Shown here piece by piece: positions 8,119-40,490 of a DNA stretch of 64,000 bases. Each line of letters begins with the position of its first letter. Position 1 is the first letter of the stretch. Origin of the DNA: Chrysoperla carnea (lineage: Eukaryota > Arthropoda > Insecta > Neuroptera > Chrysopidae); assembly GCF_905475395.1 (NCBI RefSeq), contig NC_058337.1:82826368-82890367 (forward strand), in the 5' to 3' direction. The notes below the pieces were generated by a model that worked only from the letters and a program-made list of their open reading frames with translations, did not search any database and was not told where the DNA came from. Position numbers and translations under genes: made by a program.

Positions 8119-9979
<1,861 letters not shown>

Positions 9980-14198: not shown

Positions 14199-17100
14199 TC
14201 AATCAATTTTAACAGCACTGTAAATTTTTCTAATAAATGAATAAGCAGCAAAGAATCCTATTGTTCCAGTCAACAACCAAAATGTTAAGACCATTAAACC
14301 AGTGTATGATATATACAATAGAGTGGGGATGAATTCAGTAATTTCTAATTTTGTAACAAAATAAAATATTGAATATGCAAACACGTATACAGCTGAACCA
14401 CCTGATACGATGAAACTTCGCCACCACCAATGGTAATCCTATAAAATAAAATTTTAAAGATTTAATAACTACCATTGAATACAGCATAGCACCATAAGGG
14501 ATCATACAAGTAGCCACATATAAACGTAAATATTGATACCGAATAATGGTATATTTCTATTAAAAAAAGTAAAAGTGGCCACACCTTTTAATAATTTTAA
14601 GTTTCAAATTTAATTAAAAACTATTTATTTTTGCGAAATTTTAAATAAAAATCACGAACTCCATAATACCTAAATTATTTAATAAAAATTCTAGGTATAT
14701 TATTAAAAAGGAAATTTTATAGCCAAAAGATTATTTTTTTCAGCATATAAAAATACGTAAGAAATTCTTTAATGCGAGATTGAGATCTCTAGCTGTTCCG
14801 AGAAGTGGTTTGATGCGTAATGGCTAAGAGTAAATGACAATAATGAACAATAGTAACTTTAGGTGGAATGTGATTCGAACTGAGCGAAAATTAAAAAAAA
14901 ATATATACGTATAATAACTTATGAACTCTTTACGAAGACTGAACTGTCGAAGAAGTAATGATAATTTTTTTACGAGTACTAGCACAAATCTAATAATTTA
15001 CTAAAAAAGAATCATACAAATCAAAATGTATTATTTTTATTGACATTCCTGCGTAAACAAATAAATTTAAACTTTACATTTGAACTTACCTCTCCACATA
15101 ATTGAAAATAAACCATTACAATGGAAATTTGTGAACATGATATAACAAGTATACAAAATACAAGGAACAAAAATCCAAATAAATAATAAAATTGATTTTC
15201 CCATATTGCGGTAAATATGAAAAACAATTCAATAAATACTGCACCAAATGGTAAAATACCAGCCATTAATGTACTGCAAACACAAATACATACAAAATTT
15301 AATACATATAAAATGTGACACTTTCTTAAATATTTAAAAATATTATTTACCATAAAAATGTATTCATATACCAAACTTGCTCAGGTACTTGACGTGGAAT
15401 TTGATTTGTTCGTACCGGATGTTGATATGGTTGTTTTCGGTAACCGAAATAGTAGCCCAAAAATACCAATGGTAATGATATACAAAACCATAATAATAAC
15501 AATGCAATCATTGTGGAAAATGGTACAGCCCCACTGGAATCTTTACCCCAAATGAAAAAGTTTAATAGAAAACATGTACCAAATACAATAGCCGGATATA
15601 ATACAGCTGTTAAGAATGCAGCACGTTTCCATTGACGTCCTTTCATTGTTTTATACAACCGAGCTGAAAAATATCCGGCGATTAAACCCATAAACACGTA
15701 TAAAAATATAACAGCTGTCATTAATGCCCCACGGGATGATGGGGACAACATTCCTAACATGGCAAAAACTGCAAAATAAAAAAATTAAATTAATAAAAAT
15801 TAACGTTTAAGAGTACCTTCTAGACTTATTACAAGATAGTTTCTCAGTGTGATGGTTAATTTTTAAATTCAAACACATTTTTAAAATTAAATATCATATT
15901 ATAGACAAAGAGCTTAAGATAGAGGAGAAGGTTCTCATTACTGGCAATGCTAAAAAAGAAAAAAAGAGTATACGAGTTTCAGTGCTTTAAGTGATTGGGT
16001 CCAGTCATAAAAGTTCTCCACCTCCATAATTTTGTTTAAAAAAATTTATGTTAGCAGAGCGTAGTTTCGATCTACGTATCTCTGATTTGAGAGCCCAGCA
16101 TGCTTCCGCTGCGCTATTTCGCTCTATGTAATAATATCGTAATGTACTGATTCTGATTTAAATACAGTAGTATTTACAGGCCACTAATTACTAAATGGCT
16201 TTCGTGCCTGTATACGCGACTTTCTCTTCTATCTTATATTCTTTGATTATAGAAAAAAAAATTTCACACCATTCCCTCTCTCTCTAACTTTTAAGTCTTG
16301 CGATATAGAAATCTGGAAAGTGGCGTCAGCAATATTCAATAAAGACTATCTATGTTAATTAAAAGACGGGGGGGGGTGGATAAGCCCATTTGTATTTTTT
16401 TATGGTCACATAAATACAGTAGTACAGCGGATGATTGAATAATCAATTGGAATGCTTTTTTATTAATTAAAATATTTTATTTTATTTTACTAACAAAATC
16501 CTAAAATAAACTTCAATATGTCGTTATCATACTGAGAAACTCACTTAAGTTCAAACAGTTTTATTTTTCGGTTATTTAGAAAATATTAGAAACTTACAAA
16601 TTGTTATCAAAGCCATAAAAAATATCTGTATTCCACTGCCAATAACCGCAGCAAAGAGCCGCGTATGTCTTGGTGGACGAAACACATCTCCGTGTACCAA
16701 TTTCCATCCCGTTTCTTCAATAGCTTCATCGAATCCGTCATCCGCATTATAGCGGGCAATATCTCGTCGTAGTGTTCGGACCATAATCATTGTTAAAATT
16801 CCTAAGAAAAAAAAGAGCAATTTATAGAGGAGTTAATTTATAGAGAATTATCATAAGTTAATCCAAAATTTTATACCTGATAAGAAAAATATTACAACTA
16901 ATGAATTAATAATCGAAAACCAATGGATTTGTACATCATTCATTCCTAAATAAATATCCCAACGGGACGCCCAACTAACATCAGACTTTTCCCATTGGAC
17001 AGAATATGTAAATAATAAGGTTGTGCCTGCATTCCCATTGACTTCTTGCGGCCGTGGATTATCTGGGAATGTACATGTACCATCATTAAAATTAATTTCA

Positions 17101-17886
17101 GACAGATGAACAGATTGTGCTTCAACTTCAAAGCCCACAACTCGATATAATTGCCTAAAATACATATAAAATTTATATCTTTCTTCTGAATGTATTTTGA
17201 GGACGAAAATTTGTGTGGAATTCTGAAGTTTCAGTTCCGCCGATTTTAAATTTTTTACACTTGATATTGTCTGATATTATAGACTTGTAGTCTGATACCA
17301 AACAAAATATGTATCAAAATTCAAAAATCAATCGAACATAAAATCTTTCCAGAACTTTAATAGAAGTTTTACTTACGGCACATGTGAATGGTAGAATAAT
17401 TTAATTTTTAAATGATTATTAATATATTGTTTATTTTTAATATTTATCCCTAAAGGATATCCATGCTCTACTTGAACTTCTTGCGTATCTCGATTTAAGT
17501 ATCTTGTCGCCGCTGGTAAATTATCTACAAGCCTAAAAATTGCAAAACTCGCTATATAATTTTGATTTTTTCGACAAAATCGCTGCAAATAATTGAGGAG
17601 CTGGATACAATAACGCTGTAAGTTTACAAAGTTTGAGCGCTATATAGATAAAAAAAGATAATTTGAGACAGCTTATGTCTTTCAAGAATATCTTATGCTT
17701 AAAATTTCTTACAATTTAAGGATTTAGCTATTTATTTTCGACTTCAAAATAATTCTGTTCAAATTCCCTAACTTAAAATTTTCAACTTTTCCAATACAAA
17801 GTTTATACGTATTTTCATAAATATAAATTAATCATATAGGCTAGGCTCCTGTGTATTACATCCTAGCGTCTATGTATCGTTGTATT

Positions 17887-17917
<31 letters not shown>

Positions 17918-19717
17918 TTTTTTAAGTTTCTGTTTTTTTTTCTTTTTTAATATTTTTGTTATTTTTCAGAAGTTTGTTTTAATTATAATTGTATCGAACG
18001 TTTAATTTAATTTTTACTTAATGAAATGTATATTTTTATTTTTTGTAAATGGCTTTAATGGCTTAATGGCCCTTGCCAAAATATTTTAAATAAAAAAAAA
18101 AAAAATAAATAAATAAATAAAAAAAATATAGGCTAGGCGAAGTTAAAAAATGTCCATATTTAGACAAAATTTAATTTTATAACATAAACGTAACAAATTA
18201 GTTGCGAAAAATATCATTATCTAATTCGAACGTCTTCAGCTTTTTGCTAATTTATGGGAACATCAAAATACGAAATATTTTCTTATATTGAAATATTTTT
18301 TAGTTTTAAACAAATTGAACTGTGTTAGTATTTTCTGTATAATACTTTCAGATTAGTATTTTCTGTGTAAGTTAATGAATTGACGAACATATGTCATAAT
18401 GCACCAATTTAATTTAATTAGTGGTTACACAAAAAATATACTCAATAAAGCCATGTGCACGCCTTCAAAATTTTTGTTATAAAGCCCTTAATTTTATTCG
18501 TACCGCAATTAAATTTTGATGGAAAGTAAAAAACATTACGAGAATTTAAAAAAACCAAACGGAGCAAAAATCGCGTAAGTGTCCCTACAATCCGTTCATT
18601 TGTAATCATAGCATTTTGTAGGAAATTTTCACCGCGACATAAAACTTTGTCAAAATATTGTTTGGAAATTTTTGAAAAATATGCATAGTTTGAAACATGT
18701 ATTATTTCCATGTCCATAATGTAAAATGATTATAAGTATTTGGTTCGCCAGGCCCATAGAGACTTTTGATTAGGATCCTAACTACAAAATCCTTATATGA
18801 ACAAATTTGGCCAAAACAACATTTGTACTTTCTCGGTTAATTCAGGAATGTAAATTTTAGTTTTACAATAACCTTGTCTTAGTAAAAGTATCCTTCAGAA
18901 TTGCGCACCGGGTTTTGCGAAGGACTCTACGATGAGTTAATTGAATTATCGCTATAAATAAAGTCTCTACGTTTTGTTGCAGAAAGGCAAATCAAGGCAA
19001 TTATCTAACTAACAATGTAAGGTATACCCAATGTAATCGTCTAATTGTTGAAAATAAGGATAAAATAGGACTGCAATTAATTCAATGTGACAAATGTTAA
19101 CTTCTATTGTGCCTTGAAAATACCGAAAATTTTATTTCTCCCCTTTAAGAGTATAATGAAGTAAATATGCTATCATAAGTGCATATCTTCAATGAATACA
19201 AAAATTGTAAACTTATCTTTTTAACTATTCCAAAACATTTAAATTATCAAAGGATTGTACAGAGTGCTTTTCCCAATTTCATTATTATAAATGATACTTA
19301 CAAATGAACAAAATATTCATGACGAATTCGTTCAATAACCTTCTGTGATGCTTCGGCATTCCAATTAATTGGATCATCGTGTGAGTGACACAATAATTTA
19401 CAGTCAATATTTTCAGCCATACGCACTTCATACGGTGTATTTACAATACGATCTCCTCGTAACACTTCACCAAGATTTTCTGATTTGTATATAAGTGTGC
19501 CATTTTTCGGTAAACAAAACGGCAACGAATAATATTCGTATGGTAATTGGGTGTGAACACTAGTCATTTTAACAGCTTTCACATCAATCTTTTGACCTTT
19601 ACGAAACTCAACCGGTGCGACACCCGGTATGTAAAATTGATGTGATATTCTGAATATCTGTATGAACAGTATTAATAATATTGGATTCATATTCTGTAAT
19701 AATTTTTTATACATCAT
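14199..19717 (-). CDS. TM9SF4: Transmembrane 9 superfamily member 4 (nonaspanin), complete seven-exon gene
   Basis: Exons in transcription order are 19717-19302, 17532-17377, 17154-16877, 16801-16598, 15768-15351, 15273-15090 and 14438-14199. Every junction is GT-AG with matching phase; the total is 1896 nt, 631 aa (human TM9SF4 is about 642). The protein starts with a hydrophobic signal ([20 protein letters not shown]) and then [11 protein letters not shown]. The lumenal domain carries [28 protein letters not shown] and [13 protein letters not shown]. The nine-helix region includes [40 protein letters not shown] and [15 protein letters not shown]. The C-terminus ends KIYSAVKID, a KxD signal known in this family to bind COPI and retain the protein in Golgi/endosomes. 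The family acts in membrane-protein trafficking and phagocytosis. Introns 1 and 4 contain transposon insertions. The PIGN-family gene lies about 1 kb upstream on the same strand. Confidence 0.96.
15900..16256 (-). mobile_element. TIR element carrying an initiator-tRNA-like core, copy 2 (TM9SF4 intron 4)
   Basis: This is the better-preserved copy of the element at 7605-7951, in opposite orientation. Its ends are inverted repeats of about 26 bp. The left end reads CAAAGAGCTTAAGATAGAGG and the reverse complement of the right end reads CAAAGAATATAAGATAGAAG. ATTATAG flanks both sides and may be the target duplication. No protein-coding capacity is present, so it is non-autonomous. Confidence 0.7.
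16052..16123 (-). pseudogene. Initiator tRNA-Met-like sequence in TIR element copy 2
   Basis: Read on the minus strand, the 72 nt begin AGCGAAATAGCGCAGCGGAA, continue GCATGCTGGGC, and end GATCGAAACTACGCTCTGCT plus A. The ATCGAAAC T-loop (A54 in place of the usual T) and the A1/3'-terminal TA ends are hallmarks of eukaryotic initiator tRNA. The anticodon arm is mutated (CTGGGCTCTCAAATCAG), so it is a relic. Confidence 0.7.
17834..18138 (+). mobile_element. 5'-truncated non-LTR retrotransposon tail with 13-bp target duplication
   Basis: The direct repeat ATATAGGCTAGGC occurs at 17834-17846 and 18126-18138. Between them lie ~280 bp that start with TCCTGTGTATTACATCC, contain (TATT)n and T-rich tracts, then GGCTTTAATGGCTTAATGG and CCCTTGCC, and end in an A-rich (AAATA)n tail. 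This is what a severely 5'-truncated LINE insertion looks like. It lies in TM9SF4 intron 1. The clade cannot be told from the tail. Confidence 0.7.
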
Positions 19718-20765
19718 TTTTGTTCAAGTTTTTTTAGGTTACGTTTTATTTATTTTTTATGCAGAACTTGTATTTTCATTTGTGTCAAATACTTTCTAAA
19801 ATTCCATTGTAAAACTTACTGTAACATTGCTTTTGGAATTAAACTAATTACTTTTACAAATTGTATTTTATTGTAAAATAAAAAATTTTTGTCAGAAAAT
19901 CATGTCAAGTTTACACATCAAACTGTCATTTTTATTGCGTGTAAAACACACACGATTGCAAATTGACTTTTCTGATTTGTCTTAATACCAACTCTTAACA
20001 AAAATTACTATTATGAAAATTAATGACAAATCCCAATAGATGTCTCGAAATCACTCAATTTTTGGAAGCAACAATATTTTAAATTATTTTAAAATTTTAA
20101 TTTTGTGTCGTTGAGGACAGAATGGACTTTCTTATTTTTCGTTTCTTCCCTTCTAGCTAAAGATGTATAGCTTCATGGTGACGCTGGCTTTGAGTTTTTT
20201 ACGATTTAATTCTGCTGAAATTTTTTTTCATCCAGATGGCAGCATGGCCAAAACTGGCCACGTGATCTAATTTGACGCACAAACTCAGCGTTATACAGCG
20301 AAAATACACCTTATAGTATAAGAGATTCTCAAACCCTTAGAAAGACTTGAAGCTCTTGGAAGACGATGATTGCAATTGTAATTTAACGTAAAACGATTAT
20401 TTTCCGTTCACTTATTACGCCATCTACTGACAAAAGCTCAACCTTTGTCAATTTGTACATTTTAAAATTATTTTTGCATCTAACACCTGGAAAAACGCAT
20501 TTTACAACATTTTTCGAATGGAAGACTTACATTTTTTGCATTTCTTTGACTTTAATTAATCAAAAAAAATAAGTTTCGTCTTTGGTCAAATTTTACATTA
20601 AAATTTTTTTTTGCGTCGTTTCCCTGCAACGGATAATCTCCGTTGTGTTGATTTTATTAAGGATAAATGAAAATGATATTTTACATGTTAAAATAAGTCA
20701 CAGAATTTTATTATTTAGAAATTGAAAATACGTACAATAGCAATACATTTCTTAGACACTCACTT
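19718..20765. other. TM9SF4 promoter region and PIGN-family 3' flank
   Basis: This 1-kb spacer separates two genes transcribed in the same (minus) direction. It should contain the promoter and 5' UTR of TM9SF4 and the 3' UTR of the PIGN relative. I see no open frame, TATA-type box or repeat I can defend. Confidence 0.5.
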
Positions 20766-23700
20766 TCAAGTACGAATATGTACATTTGTTAAAAATATGG
20801 CCAATTTAAACATAATTGGTACCAATAAAAATAAAAAATTAAACAATGTGAATAAAGTAAATGGTATCATAATATCATACAAATTACCATCTGTTTTTAT
20901 TAAATAAATTAAATGTACGGTAAATAAATTAGCCGTTAACATTAATATCAAATAAAATTTATATAATGATATTTGATTCTTTATCACTAATATTGTATAG
21001 ATTGTAATAAATACAGATAATATTGGTATCAATATTTTATAAAATATTAAATATGATATTATATAATAATCTTGATCTTTTTCTGTATTCAATGCAATAA
21101 AACCATTTATCATTTTTTCATTCCATTCGAATATTTCTTTGTAATTATTTGTACCAAAAAAGGCAAGCATTATATAATAGATCTATATTTATGTAAGTTA
21201 AGAAAATATTATAGGGAATAGAGAACTTTTTTTTAATAGAACATGAAAGCCATAATATTTGCTGTCTCCGAATTAGTCAGAAATATTGTTTATTGTTGAG
21301 AGCTTCAATTTGTGGAAGTCTATAATGATGATTTTTTATAACAAATTTTAATAGTAAAAAATATTTAGAGTGTTGTAAATTTTGTTTTGCTATTTAAACA
21401 ATGGTTACATTGAAAATTATACAAATAAATGGTCACATTATGTAACAACTATATATATATAGAATTGTTACATAATGTGTGACTTCGAAAAGACTTTCAT
21501 TTGAAACATTTTTCTATAAACTTAATAAATTTAATAGAAATCGAATACGGAAAAATAAAATTTTTGACTTCAATATCTACCCTATTGTAACGACTATTTG
21601 GATTCGAAGCCAGGTGAATTCTTGGTAACTCTGATGTATACATAGAAATATAACAATTTAACAGTAAAGCAACAAGTAAAGTTATTTAAAGTTTTTTGGG
21701 GTCATTGTTTGTCAAAAGCATATCTTATAATATTTTCGTTAAGCTCACCGTTCTTTAGGTATTAACAATTTAATGTTTTGGAAAAAAAAAAACAATGGTA
21801 AAAATTTTTCTGAAATAATTTATGCACGTCCGATAACAAAATCCTGTACAGTAATTATATACAGGGTGGGCCATTTTAACCAATCAAAAACTAACTCAAA
21901 CAAAAGTTTCAGAGTGTGATGGGGGACATCATGTTCTGACGTCATCATATAGCACAGCAGTGCGTATCGTAGATTAATTTAAAAAAAATGGAAAATCGAA
22001 AATTGAAAGTGTATAATGTATGCTGTATATGTGAAATGTGTATGCTTTTGCTGTGACTATATATACAGGACATAAAATAGCCCTTTTTCACACCCTTATA
22101 TCTCAGAAACTACTTGAGCTATAATGTTGAAACTTTCAACTTAAGTAGATATTTACCCTGGGACGCCGTAAATCAAAGCTCACGTTCACGGCTCTCATCG
22201 TTTCCGAGCAATAACGCGTCAAAAAACGGCCACGCCCCGAAATTTTGTTACTGACTCATATAAATTCACAGCAAAACTGAGAAATGGTATCAAGATGCGG
22301 TTTTCATTAAAATAAATTAGAAAAAAATCATACCCCAGAAAAACTTCCAAATATCAAAATTTTTAACGGGAAATGGGAAATTTCGCTAATTAAAGGTGCA
22401 TTTTTTCCGTATTTAAAATACATGGTAAAATATGAACCAATCAGAAGGCTAGTTTTTTTTCCTATACAATTTGTATGGTAAAACTTAAATACGCTTAAAA
22501 ATTTGTTATTTATATAATTTTAATTAAATATTGATTAAATTTGAATAAATATTATATAAATATTCAAAAATTAATTGTGTAATTCAATATTTTTAACGGG
22601 AAATGGGAAATTTCGCTAATTAAAAGTGCATTTTTAGCCCTATTAAAATAACATGGTAAAATATGAACCAATCAGAAGGCTAGTTTTTTTTCCTATACAA
22701 TTTGTATGGTAAAACTAAAATACGCCTAAAAATTTGTTATTTATATAATTTTAATTAAATATTGATTAAATTTGAATAAATATTAAATAAATATTCAAAA
22801 ATTAATTGTGTATTTCAATATTTCCAACTTAAAATATTATAAAAATTAAATAAAATATATCTTATTACTAAGACCCTATGAAATTCAAAGTACCATGTAG
22901 AAAACATATTAAAATTATTATGTTACATTAATTAGGAAAATTTTAATTTGCTTTTATAGCGAAAACTGTAAGAGATAGAACAAAAGTTTAAATGCAAAAA
23001 ATGTTCCTTGCATAAAATTAAACAATTCTGTATGAAAAATTTTGTTGTAAAGGTAATTGTTTTCCCGTGAAAAGCAAATAAAGTAAAAAATTAAATTGCA
23101 ATTTTCGGAAAAACGGTAAGAGATAGAACAAAAGTTTAAATGTAAAAAATGTTCCTTACATAAAAATAAACAACTTTTGTTTGAAACATTTTTTCGAAAA
23201 AACAATCATTTTCCCTCGAGAAAGTAAATAACCAGTCCTGTTTTTTTCGTTAATGCAAAATCCAACTATTTTTGTCCTTAAATTTAAAAAAAGTATAAAT
23301 ATAATTTTACAAGAAGTTTTAAACCATTTTGCTTAAATGGCTTGTAGTGTTTACTACTAATTGTTGCAATGACAACGAATTTTATTTTCTTAAAAACAAT
23401 GGTATTGTTATGTTCAACAATAAATAATCTTGCAACCCAATTTTGAAGCCGACACCCTCAATCGATTACGTTGAAATTTTGTAAGCACGCTGACTTTGAA
23501 TGACATTGAATTTTTATGGTTGACTTGATCAAATTTTCTCTTCGCTTCCGCCATATTTTGTTAAATGGGGGGGGGGGATGTTATTACTCAATTTTAAAGC
23601 AGATATCTTCAACCGATTGAGTTGAAATTTTGTATACACGTTTAGATTTGATAACAAAACATGGTAAGGTTAGTGGCGTTATTATTTTTCCATCACTTCC

Positions 23701-26700
23701 ACTATAATTGATTTATCTATAAATGATTCAGCTATACCGATTCTAAGGGACTTCTAAATTATAGAAAGATGCGATTTTGGACATTCGACAGAGACTTGCT
23801 TGAATTGAGGGTCAACCTATGCGCAGTACTATTACATGTAATCCTCGTGTGCGCACAAGCAATTTTTAAGGCCTACATGTGCGCAGTAACAAAATATAAA
23901 TTTAGCGTATGCGCAGTTGCAAGATTCAGGATAAATGCATGCGCACAACTATAATTATTGATTAATCTGTGGGCACTTCCCGGATATAATACCCAAATAT
24001 GCGCACTAACAAAATATAAAGTCCCTGTATGTGCAGTTGTAATATTCAGGATCAACCCATGCGCAGTATTATTACATGTAATCCACATGTGCGCACATGC
24101 AATATATAAGGCCTACATATGCGCAGTAGCAAAATATTAACCAAGCTAATGCGCAGTTCTAAGATTCAGGTAAAATGCATGCGCAGAACTATCATTTGTG
24201 ATTAATTTATGCGCATTTTCAATATTTAAGGACCAAATATGCCCATTTACAAAATATAGGGTTCCCGTTTGCGCAGTTGTAATATTTAGAATCAACCCAT
24301 GCGCAGTACTACATCATGTAATCCACATGCGTGTACTAGCAATATATAAGGCCTATATAAACGCAGTAACAAAATATAAATTCAGCGTATGCGTAGTTGT
24401 AAGATTCAGGATAAATGCATACGCACAACTATAATTATTGATTAATCTGTGCGCACTTGCCGGATATAATACTCAAATATGCGCACTAACAAAATATAAA
24501 GTCCCTGTATGCGCAGTTGTAATATTCAGGATCAACCCATGCGCAGTACTATTACATGTAATCCACATGTGCGCACTAGCAATATATAAGGCCAACATAT
24601 GCGCAGTAGCAAAATATTAATGAAACTAATGCGCAGTTCTAAGATTCAGGTAAAATGCATGCGCAGAACTATAATTTGAGATTAATTTATGCGCATTTTC
24701 AATATTTAAGGACCAAATATGCCCATTAACAAAATATAAGGTCCCTGTTTGCGCAGTTGTAATATTTAGAATCAACCCATGTGCAGTAATATTTCATGTA
24801 ATCCACATGCGTGCACTAGCAATGTATTAGGCCTACATACGCGCAGTAACAAAATATAAATTCAGCGTATGCGTAGTTGTAAGATTTAGGATAAATGCAT
24901 GGGCCGAACTATAATTTGTGATTAATCTGTACGTACTTCCAATATATAAGACCCAAATATGCACACTTACAAAATTTAAGGTCAATGTGTGCGCAGTTGT
25001 TGTATTCCAGATTATCCCATGCGCAGAACAATTATATGGGATCAAAGTGTGCGCAATACCAATATATAAGACCCAAATATGCGCACTTACAAAATATAAG
25101 GCCCCTGTATGAGCCGTTGTAATATTCAGGATCAATCCATGTGCAGAACTATTTTATGAAATCAAGCTGTGCGTATTACCCATAAATAAGGCCTAAATAT
25201 TTGCAGTTACATAATATCTGTCTGTCCATATGCACATCTGTCTGCCAACACGATAACTCAAAAACGAAAAGAGATATTAAGATGAAATTTTTATAGCGTA
25301 CTCAGGACGTAAAAAGTGAGGTCAAGTTCGTAAATGATCATTATACGTCAATTGATTTCTGGGTCTGTGGAACCCATCTTGTAAACCGTTAGAGATATAA
25401 CAAAAATTTTAATGTAAAAAATATTCCTTATAAAGAAATAACCAACTTTTGCATAAAACATTTTTTCGAAAACATGACTGTTTACCCATGCGGACGCAAA
25501 TTAGGCGTAAATTATATAGAATGCATTATATAATAATCAATATCAGTTATATGAAAAGGAAATTTTCATTATAATATTTATAAATAACACTATTTTGATG
25601 ACATCTTGTTCGGCATATTTCTTGACGTACGAGGCTCAGTATTCAACAGTAATTCAATGTATGCATAATGGTGAGTTAAAATTGTTACAAACACTTTCAA
25701 CTTAAATACTATTGCCTGGCAAAAAGAAGTGATATCCCACCAAAAACATAAATGTGTAAAAAGGCGTAGATGAATTCCAATAAACTCAATTACGTCAGCC
25801 CAAAAAAGTTGTGAAATCCCGTAGAGAAAAAAATTATTCGAAAAAAAATTATAAAAATGGCATAAATTTATTGAGTAACTTTTCCGTAAAGAAACATTAA
25901 AGTATTACATTAGCAACTTTTCGGTGCCTTCATACCTACACGCACCTGTATAGGAGAACAAAAGATAATCGTTAACCCCCTACTATCTCCCTCCTCCCCT
26001 CTAATGTTATGACGTAATAATTTTTTCACAACTTTTATGAAACATCAAAATTTAAATTTAAACAATCAAAGTATTCTTTAGATTAAAGTCAAGCACCTAC
26101 TTAACAAAGGCCTAATTTTTTTTACTAAAGTAAGAAAATTATTGGTTTAAATTTCTTGTCAAGTTTCTCCTTAGTACGTATTTATTTAATATTTTACTTC
26201 GCAAGTTTTTTATTTTTAGATTCGTTTTTATATTCCGAAAACTTGCGAAGTAAAATATTAAATAAATACGTACTAAGGAGAAACTTGACAAGAAATTTAA
26301 ACCAATAATTTTCTTACTTTAGTAAAAAAAATTAGGCCTTTGTTAAGTAGGTGCTTGACTTTAATCTAAAGAATACTTTGATTGTTTAAATTTAAATTTT
26401 GATGTTTCATAAAAGTTGTGAAAAAATTATTACGTCATAACATTAGAGGGGAGGAGGGAGATAGTAGGGGGTTAACGATTATCTTTTGTTCTCCTATACA
26501 GGTGCGTGTAGGTATGAAGGCACCGAAAAGTTGCTAATGTAATACTTTAATGTTTCTTTACGGAAAAGTTACTCAATAAATTTATGCCATTTTTATAATT
26601 TTTTTTCGAATAATTTTTTTCTCTACGGGATTTCACAACTTTTTTGGGCTGACGTAATTGAGTTTATTGGAATTCATCTACGCCTTTTTACACATTTATG

Positions 26701-29700
26701 TTTTTGGTGGGATATTAGGGAGACAGGACATAATTATAAATGTAATATACTTAAGTTAAAACTAAACCAGGCCTATGCACAGATGATTAATTTTCATCTC
26801 TATAGGTGCATACTATATATGTGTATTTGAGTATTATATGTATGTATGTATGTATATTATCCTGGCAATAAATAAAATAATAAAATAATAATAATATTGG
26901 ACCTATTTCTTCCGGCTTCTTTAATAGCCAATTTAGATTCGAAACGGTAAGATAGAATAACACTTTAAATTAGAAAGTTGATCCTCATAAAAAAACTCAA
27001 TTTTTGATTAAAACATTTTTTCGAAAAACGTTAGTTTTCGGAGAAAACAGCAATCCCATGGACACAGTCAATCTCATATCCTCTATTGTCCTTGACAACC
27101 TTTGGCTTAAGTATTTTTCGTAGCGTGTTTTCTTTCGATTAAATGCAATAATGACATATTTTTAAGTCGCATTTCCTCCGAAAGCTAACGTTCGAAAAAT
27201 GTTCGTAATGTTCGTTTCGAAAAAATATTTTAAAACAATACTATATCCAATCTGATGTCAGAACATGATGTCCCCTAACATTCTAATATAAACGAGCAAC
27301 TTGCTTTGCATTGCTGCATTATGGGTCAGTATTAATGTAGTAAATCTTTCGTCGCGATTATGCAGGCTACTGTTATTTATCATGGAGTTTAAGAATAAAT
27401 GTAAAATTTAACCTGTTAAGCATCTATATTTTTGAAAAGGATACCATGAAAAGCACACGTCGAAAATCGTTAAAATATACAGAATTTTTTGATTTTCTGT
27501 AAAGATGTGTAACAGTATCTTCTTTTGTGTGGAATGTAGTCTGAAAATTTTAAATTCTTTATTATGCTTTTCTAGTACCTACTAGCTTGTATTTTTATTA
27601 AACCAGAATTATACAGTAATCGTATTCTCTCGATTATGTTGTAACAAAATATAGCCAAAAATATTCTTAGAAATTATAATACTAGTGTTGTCACCGCACT
27701 GGGCACTGACACAGAAAGAATGGAAAACCTTAATCAAACTTAAAGGGAATTTCCAATTTTTATATTTTACGAGATCAAATTATCTGATAATTATATTGTA
27801 TATTCGTTAGTTACTGGAAACCCTACAGCTTGATAAGTTACAAATTTTCAAAAGGGCTGAATGGGGAAATTATCTGATAAAAATTTGTTAGATACTGGAG
27901 ACCGTACAGCCTGATAAGTTAAATATTTTTAAAAGGGCAGAATAGAAAAATTAATTTCTTGTAAGATATTCCCTTTATATTTTTGTATTAGGAAGAGCTT
28001 TGTCGGACAGCTTTGTATTAATGCGGTCAATTTATTATTCTTACCTTCATTTCAGTATCTGTGGATTTGTTTTGTATTTCAAGTTTTTCCATTTGATTCC
28101 AAGATATTAAATTGTAAATAAATACCAAAAAAAATATATGTTCGTAAGCAATCGATGATATTAAAACAGGAACTAATAATGTATGATAAATCGAAATGAG
28201 GCGATAATTAATATTTAAAGATGTTATTAGGGTTAGTAAAAAACTAATAGCTAAAAAAGAAACATTCATCAAATTAGACTTATAGTTCAGCATGTTTATT
28301 CTAATAAATCTTTTTCTAGAAAATGTGTAGATCAGGAAGGGGTCTACACATTTTTATCATCTCGCTCCGCTGTTAACATTTACACGACACGTCATAACAT
28401 CTGCATGACATGCCGTTAAATTTGCACAACATCTAGTTAAATCCCCATACTCCCAAAATATTTTTTTTCCAACAAGAATTTTCAATTTGTTAGCTTATGG
28501 CCCATGATTAAATTAACTTATTCAAATTTTGCAAATTAATAATTTTGTTGTTTTGCTTTATGATAAAAATTTTCTTTTTACTAATAACAACTTAGAAAAA
28601 TTCAACGAAAAATTCACTTTCAAAACCACTTTATATTAAATATTTTTTGTAATACAATATCCTCCAATTTGCTAAACTCTTAATTTTTCTGGAAATATAA
28701 TGAGATCAATTCCTCAAAGCCTCATCGCATCAGCAAAAATTTTAAATTTGTTTGATATAATTTATTTGGGAGTTGTCTGTTAAGGCTGTTGTCTTGTTAT
28801 GGGCATAGTATCAGAAAATTCGAAAGTTTTGTATACTTATTAAGGGTATCATATAATTACCACCAAAAATTGAATTCGATTGACCGTCTTTAAATCGATA
28901 TAAACTCAGTTAAAGTTCGGATCATTAACACGGAGAGCGTTGGAGAGCGTTTCTGCTTTTAACAAGGTTATTAAAAAAAAAACTGTCAGAAAATAAAGAA
29001 AAAACTAACTGATCATTTATGTATTTGTTCTAAGTTATCAATTATTATTGATCGTTTCATTGTTGATATATAATAATGCAAAGCAAAACCATTTTATTGT
29101 TGAATAGAAACAGCTATAGTTAGAGTATTGTGATTGTTACAGAAATACCTATAGTAGCAGAAAAATCTGATCGTATATATAGTGTGTTGTATGAGAAATT
29201 GTTGTTTGTGTTTTACACTAGTAGACAAAAATGATATCTTATTTCACTACCAACTTATTTACTCTTACCACGTATATAATCAAGAACTTTTGGCAATATT
29301 GTTCTAAGAACTTAATTTATCATACAATTGTAGGTACTTGTTTTTCGGGGTGAAAAGTGGAACTAGTAGCTTTCTTTAACAAAGTTAATAAAAGCATATA
29401 CCTGTAACACTCCATCCAAACACTGGGACTAGTGTGATTGAAGGAAAACAATCAGATTTTTGATAATAAGTATACATTTTGATTGCTGCAATAATTGCAA
29501 CAATTATCATTTGTAAATGTGCAACTGTATTATCTGTTCGTTCAGACGATGTTGGCTGTACAGTTGTTCCATCTGCTTGTTGAACAGTTGTCCCATATGC
29601 TTTTTTTATTTTAAATCCATTCCATCGATTTGTCATAACACACTCAAAGAAACGTAAATATGCTGCCAGTATCCATAAAATTAATCCAAGTACCCTTAAA

Positions 29701-32700
29701 GTTTCAAAATACATTGATATATGTTTTATTAGATAAATAATTAATAGAAAATAGGAGTTTATAAAAATTATATAATTAAAAAAAAGTATATATATACAGG
29801 ATGTTCTATAATTGACTGCAGATCTTTGCACTTCTTGAATAAGCTGAAAAATTTGGATCTGAGCGAGATAATTTCATTAAATTCATACAAAGTTGAATGT
29901 CTTCATAAAATAACAGACCAATTAGAAAAATGTTTATTACCTCATAGTTTGTACGAGTTACCATGCAAAAATAAAACTAACAATAAAACTGATGTTGAAG
30001 CGCGGGATTAAAAAATAAATGCTTACAGAAACTGATGATAATAGTGATCTATATGACTTGAAATTGGAGGTAGATTTGGAAATATTGTTAATAAAAAACA
30101 ACTCAATATCCAATGCAAATATGTGATGTTATATGGGAAAGTATAAGTGACACCTATTAACCATAAACAAAAACCTGTGCTGGTGATGGCAAACAAACTA
30201 CGATGCTGCAAATCGGCCATCTAAAAATACAAAAATTTTATAAAACAAAAAACAAATATTTCTATAGAAGAATAATTATTCTTGTTTTATCAGCGAACGA
30301 AAAATTGTATGGTTATACTTATAAGATACGTAACAAATTGGGTTGGGGGTAAATAGAGCTTTCTTATGAATGTACACTCAATGCCTGGGGCGACAAGGTT
30401 CTACATGACAGCGGCCTGTAGAACATGGATACCGCAGAGCAACTTAACCACTTAATTTCAATACGCATTTCTATCGATCTAAAGGAAAACTAAACTAAAC
30501 GTATTAACTTTTAGCGTATAAAATCGCAGTTTTAGGATCTCTACTAGATAGATCACTACTCCATGAAATCTTATTTGTTCAACACAACCGTGTCGAGCTA
30601 GTCTCTCCGCATTTATCTCATATTTAATGAGCTTGATAATCATGGGCGTCGTCAAAGGGAAGCAGGTAGGGACAGCTGCCTCCTCTAGAGATTTCGAAAC
30701 ATGAATCACCCATTTTTGCATGGATTTTCCCATATGCCTCTGCCTCCTCCCGGTTTTGAAAAATATATAAAGTATTAATTACCAAAAATTGAATGCAAAT
30801 GAAATAAATCATGGCATTTTTTAAATAGACCCATTGTTCGTTAAATGATTTTTTAAAATATTTATAGATATATTTGTACCATACAACCGTTTTCAGTACT
30901 ACAGCCACAAATAGAAATTGCACCAGAGCAAACATTACCATGTATCTAGGTGGTGTTTTAGTTACTAAAATTGAAATTTATTCGAGTTAAGATTATTCTA
31001 ATGATATAAGTATTCTAATGATTTACAAACCAACTGAAATGGATCATCAGCAAAATACAATGCTTTTTCTATCGAGCGTATAGTTAAATTTACTTTATTG
31101 CTTGTATGTTTCACCGAAAAAAAAGAATTATTTTAGATCGGCCAATGTCCTTACGTCGTATGAACCTTCGAAAAATAACATACTAATTTTTATTGTAGAC
31201 TTATTTGACTCAAATTTTGAATGCTTCTTTAAATTTTTTAAAGGCTATTAATGCCATCATTTTTTACAAAGAACAATTGCAAAGCCAAAAAACAGAGTTG
31301 CTTTTATGCCCAGAATATTCTTCAATGCCAACCTCTTATAAAAATAAAGCTATTATGTGCTGTTCAAAAGCAACCTTTTAACAAAGAGCTCTGGAACTTT
31401 TAGGGAGCGAATCGACCGTGGTGACAAGGTGTTTGCTTTTATTTGTATAGATTATACTTACCAATTCCAAAGGATACATTGATCATTAATAAAATTACAA
31501 TTATCGTTATAAATCGATATACTTCTAAATAATCGGATTCCAATTTCGATTTTGTATAAATCGGTGTCAGATCACAAAATGCAAATAACCGATGTGATGA
31601 TTGTTCACGATTAGTATTTACAATGAATTCTAATAATAATAAATTCCAGAATATTAAAATTAATAGTAGCATTAGACGTACAAGTGGTTTATAATAATTT
31701 TCAACATATTCAAGTCCTGAATATATTTGATTAATAAGTTCTTGAGATTTTAAAATCTGGAAAATATTTTAAATATAAGAGAATTCGAACATAGGTAAAT
31801 ATTAATGAATATGGGACTTATAAATATTAATGAATATGAGAAACGCTCCTCTTACAAAACTAAGCCTTGGGAAATATATTGAGAAAAATACATAAAAATG
31901 ATATGGCCTGTTTTGTAAGTGGGGGGGGGGTTATTCAGTCTGCAATTAGACCAAGATACAATAAGCTTTCATTAGCGAATTGGGATATTCGAAAGTGAAG
32001 GCACATTAAGGTAATTAGGTACCATAATTTTTCAGTAATAATCTTAAAAGTGTGCATAGGAGAGACATACTTTTAGATGAACGGATACAGACTTCAAATC
32101 GTAAAAAAGGTTTCACAGCAGAAAACATATTGATATATCAGGAAAAGTTATATATTTATTAAAATTAATATTGTCTTACCGATAAATTATATGATCCATT
32201 ATTATTTAAAAATTTAATTACTTCTAGTAAATAAGATTCATTTAAAAATGATTTGTAAGCTTGATATCCAACGTATCGTAATTTTTTATCTTCATGTTCA
32301 TGAAACAATGATAATAAATGTTTCGCATTTGCAAAACTTATTTCAGCCATTTCTTTATCTGATACATTTAAACAACCAATTGGTACTCTACCCTACAAAT
32401 AAAAGACAAGAAAAGTTTCAGCACACTACTAGCAGAAGATCAGGCTTTTATGCATTTTCTAATTTTTTTCAATTATATTAAAAGCAAATTATTTATCAGG
32501 TAAATTATTCTGCCTCTCGTTGAAAGCATATGTTTTAAGCAAAATTTGCTTAATGAGGTGTGTAAAATATTCTTTAAAATGTAAGTACTAATATTTTTGA
32601 AAGTTCTTTTAAAGGGATAAAAGCAGCACAAGTTTTTACTTGTAAAGATGGAGAAAAATCAATTTTCTCATTTGACAATAGAAAACTCTTATTTTGAGTA

Positions 32701-35335
32701 ATCAAAAGACCAGACTGTATTCTAGCGTTCCATTTTTTCTGTTGAAATATTGTTCGATCTAGAAAGTTTATGGTCTGAGAGTGAGGGACGATAGCTGCTG
32801 TCTACTAACTTGCTAGACAAGTTAGACAACAAATTTTTTACACATACGATAGACACGTTACTCTCGTTTCATTTTGATATAATTCAGCATCTTGAATACT
32901 GGGCTTATCCTTGGGCCTGAGTATAAAAGCGTTAATGGCCGACGGAAAACTCAATTTCTGTATTAAATCCTGACTCACCACAGATTCCTTTGGAATTGAA
33001 ATATCCAATAAACTAGCGATTAACAGTGGTGTATCTGTTTGATTTAATGATATATGCATGTTTGATTTCTTAATTCCAGCACCCCATGCAAGGAATGGTA
33101 TTTGTGTATCTACATCACTTATATTTGAATGTGTTTCCAATCCACGATTGCTGGTTAAGATAAACGTTGTTTGATTATCATTTTTATAAAAATTTATGAA
33201 AAATCTTTCAATATTCATCAGTAATTCATCCAAGGACCTCAAATATAATTTAGATACACTACAAAAAAAAAATTGTTATTTACTTTAACTTTCAAGAAAT
33301 AGGTTTTCTCTGTTTGATGAACTGATTATGCAATAAATTAATGCTGAGAATCCAAAGAGATGCCTTCTCTTCGAATGATAATGATAACGATTATTGAAAC
33401 AGCGATTAATATTATTTTTCTGTCTTTAATTTAGATTTAAAGATTATAAAGAACACCTTTTTAATCCCAGAACTGAAAAGGGGTGCTATATTTTTGACCG
33501 CTATATATGTGTGTGTGTCTCTCTGTCTGTGGTATCGTAGCGCCTAAACGGATGAAGCAATTTTGATTTTATTTTGTTTCGTTTGAAATGTAAATTAATC
33601 GGTTGCATATTATTTAAAACAACTTATCCAAATAAAGAATGGCAATTCAGTTAAATTGCTGTAATTTGCTTATGAGTGTATTCACTAAGTGAATTTTGTT
33701 TTATTAAACTACAAGGGTGTGAATTGAATTTGACTGTTTTTTAGACGATAGTTACAGGTATTATCTTTTGTGCGTAGACCATACATTATAATATATAAAA
33801 TTCTGTATCACTATATTAAAAGATTTGGCAGAGTAATTGTTAAATGGAAATGGTGTGTTATAATAGACACAGAAAATTTTTAAAATTTTGACTTGAATTG
33901 GATTGTAATTACTTTGAAAATGGACCATATTTCTGAACGATGCAATTACTTCCATCTAATGATATAAAAAATAAGATTTTATCTGCGTTTAGTTTTTGTT
34001 GCAACTGCTCGCTTTTATTATGAAAACCATGGTTCATTTTATACATAATTCTTTCGACTACATACTCATCACGATCAATACAATCTATACATTTTGGAAT
34101 TTTCTTTGATCCTGTATATGTTTTATCTAAATTATGAAAAAAATTAATTAATTAATTCTAATTTTGTTGGATTTTTGTGAATATTTTTTTTCGAATTATC
34201 TAGCATTTTGCAAATCTCATATTTTATAAATAACTAAAAGAAAAATTATAATTATTAACAAATTCAAGGGTGTGCAGTTCTCTCCAGAAGTAAGAATGCC
34301 TTTGGAAATGTTTCACATTGGAGCCATTAATTTTTGATAGTATAAACTTTTACTTACTGGAAGATAAGATATTAAAAACATCTTGCTTGTCTCCAAAACA
34401 ATAAGTGAATTCTGTATAATTTACAATTGAATCATAATGAATGTTACTTGACAAATATCGCCAGTAATTTTTTTTATGACTCGGATGCTCTTTGACACCA
34501 AAAAATATTGATCGATAGCCAGAAAACTTGTCGATTTGGGGAGTAGGTTTTATTGTTCCCCATGTTCCATTAGTTTTAATTACATTTCTAAATTCAAAAT
34601 GAATAATTACTACTCTTTATTAGCGTATTAAAGAATTCTGTATGTTATTTTTCATGCATTTCAGTTTTTACACGTAGGTATCAACAGTTAAAGGTGCACA
34701 TTAAAATGTACATACAATTGAAACTCGAACAGTAGTTTTCTACATCACCTAATGTTACTTTAGTCAGGTAAAGTGTAGATAAAAAAGATAGTCATGGGGA
34801 CTGTTGACGGAAGTGAAAACAAAACTTTGGAATAGCTGGCTTTCGGTCTAGCTGGAGCCTTCGGTGGTGGAGCTCGCTGCGCTCGAATATAGCTCTAATA
34901 AATACCTATTCGAGTAAAAACAACTTTTACTTAGTTCATTTTTCCCAAAAGCTTTTCCGTGAAGAAACTTTCAGCAGGATTGCTTAAAATGGCACACCTG
35001 TTTGAAAGTATAAAATGTGAACTAGATAATTTTTCCCGTAACACGTATAATCATATGCACGTTTACAAGAATCGTGTAGGATTTGATTGATTTTATATTA
35101 CTTACTTGATAAAATTTACTCCTTCAGAGTAAGAATCGTTACTGACATTATAGATTTCATTTGCTGATAGATTATCAATGACAATTAAGACAACACGTTT
35201 TCCAAGCGGCGCTTTTCCCAGACGAGTTACATTATGTTCTTCTATGTTTAATATTGGTGTTTTGAAATAAACTTCTAAAATTGTAAAGAATATCACTAGA
35301 TATATAGTGAGTTCAATTAAAAAAATTTTAAACAT
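20766..35335 (-). CDS. PIGN-family (GPI ethanolamine phosphate transferase 1-like) protein, eleven exons, active site degraded
   Basis: Exons in order: 35335-35106, 34587-34358, 34126-33913, 33258-32979, 32392-32180, 31756-31462, 30964-30783, 30220-30027, 29694-29402, 28250-28045, 21182-20766. All are GT-AG with matching phases; total 2754 nt, 917 aa (human PIGN 931). PIGN is an ER enzyme that adds ethanolamine phosphate to the first mannose of GPI anchors. Family features seen: N-terminal signal-anchor (MFKIFLIELTIYLVIFFTIL), KRVVLIVIDN, NDNQTTFILTS, PFLAWGAGIKK, and a multi-helix C-terminal half with YKILIPIL near its end. Alkaline-phosphatase-fold motifs are replaced: TESRPGH by TPQIDKFSGY, GIDTNGHAHRP by LDGSNCIVQKYGP, SDHGM by SNRGL (residues 261-265), and the following GAGHP is missing. 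Splicing and frame are intact, so I infer a pseudoenzyme paralogue rather than a dead gene. The last intron (6.9 kb) is full of repeats. Confidence 0.88.
21858..21950 (+). mobile_element. Fragment of a TACAGGGTGGNCCAT-ended repeat family (family B)
   Basis: It begins TACAGGGTGGGCCATTTTAA and contains GGACATCATGTTCTGACGTC. The same blocks occur at 44672-45163 and 52104-52700, with a rearranged copy at 26895-27290. Only the first ~90 bp of the family are preserved here, in the last intron of the PIGN-family gene. Confidence 0.5.
22355..22818. repeat. Two tandem copies of a 230-bp unit
   Basis: TTTTAACGGGAAATGGGAAA occurs at 22361 and again at 22591. The ~230 bp after each match closely, including GAACCAATCAGAAGGCTAG and CCTATACAATTTGTATGG. 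A third partial start follows near 22815. It lies in the last intron of the PIGN-family gene. Confidence 0.85.
22955..23225 (+). mobile_element. Duplicated fragments of the Helentron-like family
   Basis: The block AGAGATAGAACAAAAGTTTA plus AATGTAAAAAATGTTCCTTA occurs twice here (from about 22970 and 23119). It is also an internal block of the complete family copies at 36007-36600, 43729-44320 and elsewhere. These are internal pieces without element ends. Confidence 0.55.
23791..25220. repeat. 30-bp minisatellite array with a 480-bp higher-order repeat
   Basis: About 47 monomers of exactly 30 bp run without a net indel: a TGCGCA-like hexamer recurs in phase at every 30th base from 23820 to about 25200. 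Monomers alternate between types such as GCGCAGTAACAAAATATAAA and GCGCAGTTGTAATATTCAGG. Blocks repeat at 480 bp (16 monomers): compare 23881, 24361 and 24841, or 24001 and 24481. A weaker 240-bp similarity is visible. Because 30 is a multiple of 3, several 60-100-codon frames appear on both strands, but stops recur and no gene is implied. The right edge passes into the GTCTGTCTGTCC tract of a Helentron-like element. Confidence 0.95.
25221..25560 (+). mobile_element. Partial Helentron-like element joined to the minisatellite
   Basis: Starting at a GTCTGTCTGTCC tract, the sequence follows the family order: ACACGATAACTCAAAAACGA, then GCGTACTCAGGACGTAAAAA and GTGAGGTCAAGTTCGTAAAT, then CATCTTGTAAACCGTTAGAG, then TGTTTACCCATGCGGACGC. 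The 5' part of the element is absent and its place is taken by the 30-bp array. The distal end is diverged. Confidence 0.65.
25732..26715. repeat. Near-perfect 0.98-kb palindrome (478-bp arms, 28-bp loop)
   Basis: Left arm 25732-26209 is the reverse complement of right arm 26238-26715; the loop is 26210-26237. Outer ends read ATATCCCACCAAAAACATAA and its complement. I saw no substitution or indel in the stretches compared. It lies in the last intron of the PIGN-family gene, so the primary transcript would contain a ~478-bp RNA stem. Confidence 0.93.
26895..27290. mobile_element. Rearranged copy of repeat family B
   Basis: The left half matches family B in plus orientation (CTTCTTTAATAGCCAATTTA, GAAAGTTGATCCTCATAAAA). 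The right half matches it in minus orientation (CATTTCCTCCGAAAGCTAAC, then CTGATGTCAGAACATGATGT). The two halves therefore form an internal inverted arrangement. Confidence 0.5.
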
Positions 35336-39600: not shown

Positions 39601-40490
39601 AAGTGAAAAACAACGTATGAAAATTTTGCAGAAAAATACAAAAACAAAAATACATTTAAATATAAAAAACAAACTCATACACACGACATATATATTTTAG
39701 ATTGGTTTAAAAGTAATCAGTCTGATACAATGTAGTCAAGGTTTATGTAAAACTAAAGACTGAAACAAATTTTTGTTTACCCTTGACATGTCAAGATTTA
39801 ATAAAAAATCAAAATCCATATCTATCATTGAAAAAATATTAGCAATATTCATTTTGTTTTATTTTAAAACAAAATGTGCTTGGCGTATTTTATGAATTAA
39901 GATTTTATGTACAATGTTGACATTTAAAAATCACGGATATTAGGTTATGTTTATGTGTTTCATAACCTAAATTATTTGTCAGAACACTTACAAAGTTTTA
40001 TTAATATGTATTCAAAAACAAAATTATGACTAGTAAATGGTATCGTAAATGATATTAAACATGTTTAATGAGTATTAAGACAAGCTTATAATTATCATAG
40101 CCTTTTTTACTTTAAATTTTAACAGAGGCAGTAAAAATGACGAATTTATGGTTTTTATAACACACATTATAACCTGATCAACGTAATTGAATTTTTATAC
40201 AATTAACACAATTTTATAAAATTTATCTTTGGACAAAAATTATTCTTTTTTACAATTAGTATCTAAATATTGTCCTTCTGTTTCTAGAGCCTGGAAGTGG
40301 TACGTTCTACTCCATGCACAAGGCCTGGCTACAAGGCATTTACATTTCCGAGGTACAAATCAGATAAAATTTGTTTCATATAAAAAAGAGTACCCTAAAA
40401 TTCAATACCTATATAAATAATACCTCAATACTATTCAAATAGCTGTTCTAGATAAATATGGTGGGAGCGCAAATAAATACATTTGATTAA
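36601..40490. other. Gene-poor stretch upstream of the PIGN relative
   Basis: No gene recognised. Open frames at 37822-38094 (-), 38228-38548 (+) and 40229-40420 (+) have somewhat richer composition than their surroundings but no motif, splice context or homologue I know. Region 37840-38560 might be an old transposon relic. Confidence 0.45.

Follow-up and report, generated by a model that had tools for sequence, protein, structure and literature searches.

A full-length PIGN-family gene of Chrysoperla carnea with most of its putative metal ligands replaced

The window, a 64-kb stretch of DNA from Chrysoperla carnea, contains a gene of the PIGN family on the minus strand. It consists of twelve exons that join in phase to give 949 codons and a stop, and all eleven introns are of the GT-AG type. 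The exon ends were set by hand, with the open frames and the PIGN sequence as guide, and the re-splicing bears out the outer coordinates and the strand given in the first-pass annotation. The earlier count of eleven exons and 917 amino acids has to be corrected. The first ten exons (779 residues) and the last (138 residues) add up to 917, so that the earlier model lacks exon 11, which had been overlooked and which restores the stretch preceding LAFFGTNN. The exons and the other features of the window are presented in Table 1.

Table 1. Coordinates of the PIGN gene, its exons and the neighbouring features in the window
Feature	Position	Strand	Remarks
PIGN gene	20766..35335	-	
Exon 1	35106..35335	-	First hydrophobic segment; Asp54 (VIDN vs canonical V.DG)
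Exon 2	34358..34587	-	PTPQIDKFSGY in place of TESRPGH region; N133 sequon NYT
Exon 3	33913..34126	-	DTxGH region replaced (N214, Q218)
Exon 4	32979..33258	-	NRGL for DHGM (N262, R263); His268 and WGAGIK retained
Exon 5	32180..32392	-	GRVPIGCLN; luminal domain ends here
Exon 6	31462..31756	-	PigN multi-TM region begins
Exon 7	30783..30964	-	
Exon 8	30027..30220	-	
Exon 9	29402..29694	-	
Exon 10	28045..28250	-	
Exon 11	27445..27540	-	NDFRRVLFM; absent from the earlier 11-exon model
Exon 12	20766..21182	-	Runs to the stop codon
AATAAA, candidate polyadenylation signal	20707..20712	-	About 50 nt after the PIGN stop
Inverted repeat, intron 11	25732-26209 and 26238-26715		478 bp, perfect; 28-nt spacer
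Minisatellite, intron 11	23804-25217		120 bp, about 11 copies
EMP70-like open frames	15350-19723	-	Four frames
Cupin_8-like open frame	9500-9976	+	1.9e-39
Open frame of 598 aa	41393-43186	-	

The protein has the full-length architecture of the PIGN type, with an N-terminal transmembrane segment, a luminal domain and a multi-spanning part; its hydropathy peaks are found at residues 1-31 and then from residue 411 onward. Residues 403-910 match the Pfam family PigN (PF04987) with an E-value of 5.3e-41 and a score of 141.3 bits (cut-off 25.4), in agreement with the earlier view that the C-terminal half follows the family. The sole further Pfam match up to E = 1 is MGT5A_N, at E = 0.1 and under its cut-off. 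The protein resembles PIGN/Mcd4 (GPI ethanolamine phosphate transferase 1) in the order of the luminal domain and the multi-spanning PigN domain, and the N128-type sequon, the WGAGIK motif and the NSVG..P joint are also shared. However, it is about 20 residues short after WGAGIK, and four of the six metal ligands as well as the TESRPGH and DTxGH motifs are replaced.

The replacements were assessed over the N-terminal 460 residues in 96 alignments, made with 48 parameter sets and two references, human PIGN and yeast Mcd4. These alignments are not independent and serve to gauge robustness. The two references may contain errors. We take the six aligned residues to be the metal ligands and the Thr of TESRPGH to be the nucleophile; this assignment is supported because the DTAGH and DHGM motifs of the yeast sequence align to those of ENPP7. 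The human reference agrees with the literature at the one point that was checked, the glycosylated Asn being residue 128 (PMC7255764).

The Asp of DTxGH corresponds to Asn214 in 91 of the 96 alignments (Asp211 in one, a gap in four) and its His to Gln218 in 93 (a gap in three), while the Asp and His of DHG correspond to Asn262 and Arg263 in all of them. The two ligands retained are the Asp of V.DG, found as Asp54 in every alignment, and the His of SHG, found as His268 in 86 (a gap in ten). The first-pass annotation was therefore right that the motifs of the two-metal site are replaced, four ligands being changed in 91 to 96 of the 96 alignments, and right about the survival of Asp54; His268, the second surviving ligand, was missing from its list. 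Its suggestion that one Thr may survive stands in part, since the place of the nucleophile is taken by Thr92 in 41 alignments, by Ile95 in 54 and by Gln94 in one.

The whole window was scanned in six frames with 13 patterns, namely eleven catalytic motif patterns and two positive controls. Both controls were recovered, whereas none of the eleven motif patterns matched inside the gene, whichever frame was read; three matches outside the gene (at 40274, 43139 and 48819) are all in unrelated frames. The exon ends were chosen by hand and from the sequence alone, and this might suggest that the gene model is wrong and that the canonical motifs lie on other exons. However, when the window was searched by tblastn with the N-terminal parts of the two references, four matches were obtained at E < 0.1, all of them on exons 2 to 4 to within about 20 bases. 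Together with the motif scan, this search rules out hidden canonical exons, and an erroneous gene model appears extremely improbable.

For the N-domain of the protein (368 residues), Pfam gives no match with an E-value of 1 or less. The yeast Mcd4 N-domain matches PF01663 (1.5e-10), PF00884 (3.6e-10) and PF01676 (2.4e-5), and in the PDB it matched 25 sequences, mostly sulfatases and ectonucleotide pyrophosphatases; six coronavirus proteases among them are chance matches near E 0.4. PIGN itself was found neither in this PDB search nor in the one with the window protein, which matched two sequences of the alkaline phosphatase PafA. Residues 260-321 match the PafA model NF042991 at 1.5e-5, but this match is limited to a C-terminal piece of the domain and amounts to 23.6 bits against a cut-off of 650. 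In the weak alignment with 5tj3 (E 0.073), His268 is located opposite the THS histidine of PafA, which is thus retained and which is presumably a zinc ligand. A literature search on PafA H486 found no paper.

Some metal binding may be left in the protein, since Asp54 and His268, and perhaps Thr92 as well, are retained and the alkaline phosphatase model still matches residues 260-321. The same observations could be explained by a protein that is still an enzyme, with a site rewired from Asp54, Thr92, His268 and new ligands. However, by the site layout of the superfamily one of three ligands would be left at each metal position, and the residues that replace Asp, His, Asp and His (Asn, Gln, Asn and Arg, respectively) coordinate metals poorly. 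This makes a rewired enzyme improbable. The aligned residues, the Pfam comparison and the motif scan support a loss of the two-metal site, and we infer that the transferase activity is lost as well. The protein would be unable to build the two-metal site of the alkaline-phosphatase type, and for this reason no ethanolamine phosphate would be transferred to the first mannose of GPI.

In 218 columns the human and yeast references are identical. The window protein agrees with them at 73 of these and has another residue or a gap at 145. The fraction that is kept is approximately the same as for the metal ligands (two of six), so that the active site gives the impression of having been released, not specifically targeted. 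This low similarity to the canonical N-domain also favours a diverged extra copy, which would have another role or drift under partial constraint, while an active canonical PIGN would be encoded elsewhere; EtNP transfer is termed essential in C. elegans (PMC7255764), which points the same way. A tandem second PIGN copy was sought by tblastn and none was found in the 64-kb window, a result that bears on the window only and not on the rest of the genome. The eleven introns exclude a retrocopy and likewise say nothing about the rest of the genome. An extra copy is therefore a serious possibility, although we regard it as having less than an even chance. In a search for relatives, the window N-domain gave no pattern match in viral contigs; the yeast Mcd4 piece gave 11 pattern matches in viral contigs and 150 in genome contigs, none of which was confirmed.

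Neutral decay was simulated by mutating the coding sequence towards the composition of the window, with indels and splice sites ignored. Stop-free copies numbered 33 of 300 at 0.01 substitutions per site and 5 of 300 at 0.02, and there were none among 300 at each of 0.05, 0.1, 0.2, 0.4 and 0.6. An open frame this long is not due to chance. With 145 of the 218 conserved columns altered or gapped, much change must have passed without any stop. The G+C content differs between the codon positions, and shuffles as extreme were found in 2 of 2000 cases for the N-domain and in 0 of 2000 for the C-part. The intact twelve-exon frame and the decay simulation argue for selection on the frame, an argument of another kind than a dN/dS, and the protein has probably been kept by selection. 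A young pseudogene still without a stop codon would account for the lost catalytic motifs. However, the frame is open through twelve exons with intact splice sites, no simulated copy was stop-free at 0.05 substitutions per site, and the contrast between codon positions persists, which makes such a pseudogene very improbable. A pseudogene bearing nonsense codons is ruled out by the in-phase open frame.

The candidate glycosylation site Asn133 occupies the place of human Asn128 in all 96 alignments. In C. elegans PIGN-1 the corresponding residue, Asn127, is glycosylated, and in the N127Q mutant aggregates of collagen and in the ER build up, yet the animals are viable and fertile, and on this ground the authors infer that EtNP transfer is undisrupted (PMC7255764). 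The account of a GPI-independent role of PIGN-1 is taken by that paper from Ihara 2017. The Asn required for this non-canonical role in C. elegans is thus Asn133 here; PIGN-1 differs in being also an active transferase (PMC7255764), whereas the transferase site of the window protein appears to be lost. There are 16 sequons in the 368 residues of the N-domain, and, since they are so common, an N-X-S/T would occur in the Asn128 column at about 4% by composition alone; the match of Asn133 is suggestive and is not proof. The non-enzymatic quality-control role proposed in the first-pass annotation gains support from an Asn at the position required in C. elegans, to the extent that this suggestive match allows.

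The explanation that we favour, at roughly even chances and from the sequence, is a full-length PIGN of the ER membrane that would have no catalysis. Selection would retain it for a non-catalytic job, of which the likeliest would be a GPI-independent protection from protein aggregation in the ER, as for C. elegans PIGN. This job would depend on N-glycosylation of the first luminal loop, here at Asn133. Both the location in the ER and the role should be regarded as putative. In human cells without PIGN, GPI proteins are still expressed, at a level of about 50% according to one report (PMC8222316); in another, the loss of GPI proteins is minor except for CD59 (PMC9168625). The persistence of GPI proteins in these cells suggests that a loss of the activity is tolerable at the cell level. 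If the catalytic loss is true, the GPI anchors of this animal are predicted to be without the first-mannose side chain.

It could further be proposed that this is the sole PIGN of the genome, that the lineage has dropped EtNP on the first GPI mannose, and that PIGN has become purely an N-glycosylated quality-control protein of the ER. We consider this more far-reaching proposal doubtful. If it is true, the two functions of PIGN have been separated naturally. Mutants of an active enzyme can hardly settle whether the anti-aggregation role of PIGN is separate from the transferase, and a lineage in which the protein and its key glycosylation site persist while the catalytic site is gone would provide a natural experiment. 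Among the literature matches listed, no paper had insect PIGN as its subject, and none by its title concerned fly PIGN or the loss of PIGN in insects; a search for PIGN as a pseudoenzyme gave no paper whose title concerned PIGN, and one on pseudoenzymes of the alkaline phosphatase superfamily gave nothing but an unrelated paper. PIG-N is given as present in Drosophila by a table in the preprint PMC13174539.

Several other features are located in the window. The four open frames immediately 3' of PIGN, likewise on the minus strand, match EMP70 (PF02990, TM9SF family). The open frame matching Cupin_8 probably represents one exon of a gene for a JmjC-type protein. The frame of 598 residues matches no Pfam family, and its C-terminus is cuticle-protein-like by eye. 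Intron 11 of PIGN contains an inverted repeat that reflects either a foldback duplication of very recent date or an error of assembly. No target-site duplication of 3-19 bases adjoins it, and at E 1e-3 the window contains no further copy of it. The minisatellite in the same intron has a higher-order period of 240 bp and is rich in ATGCGCAG words.
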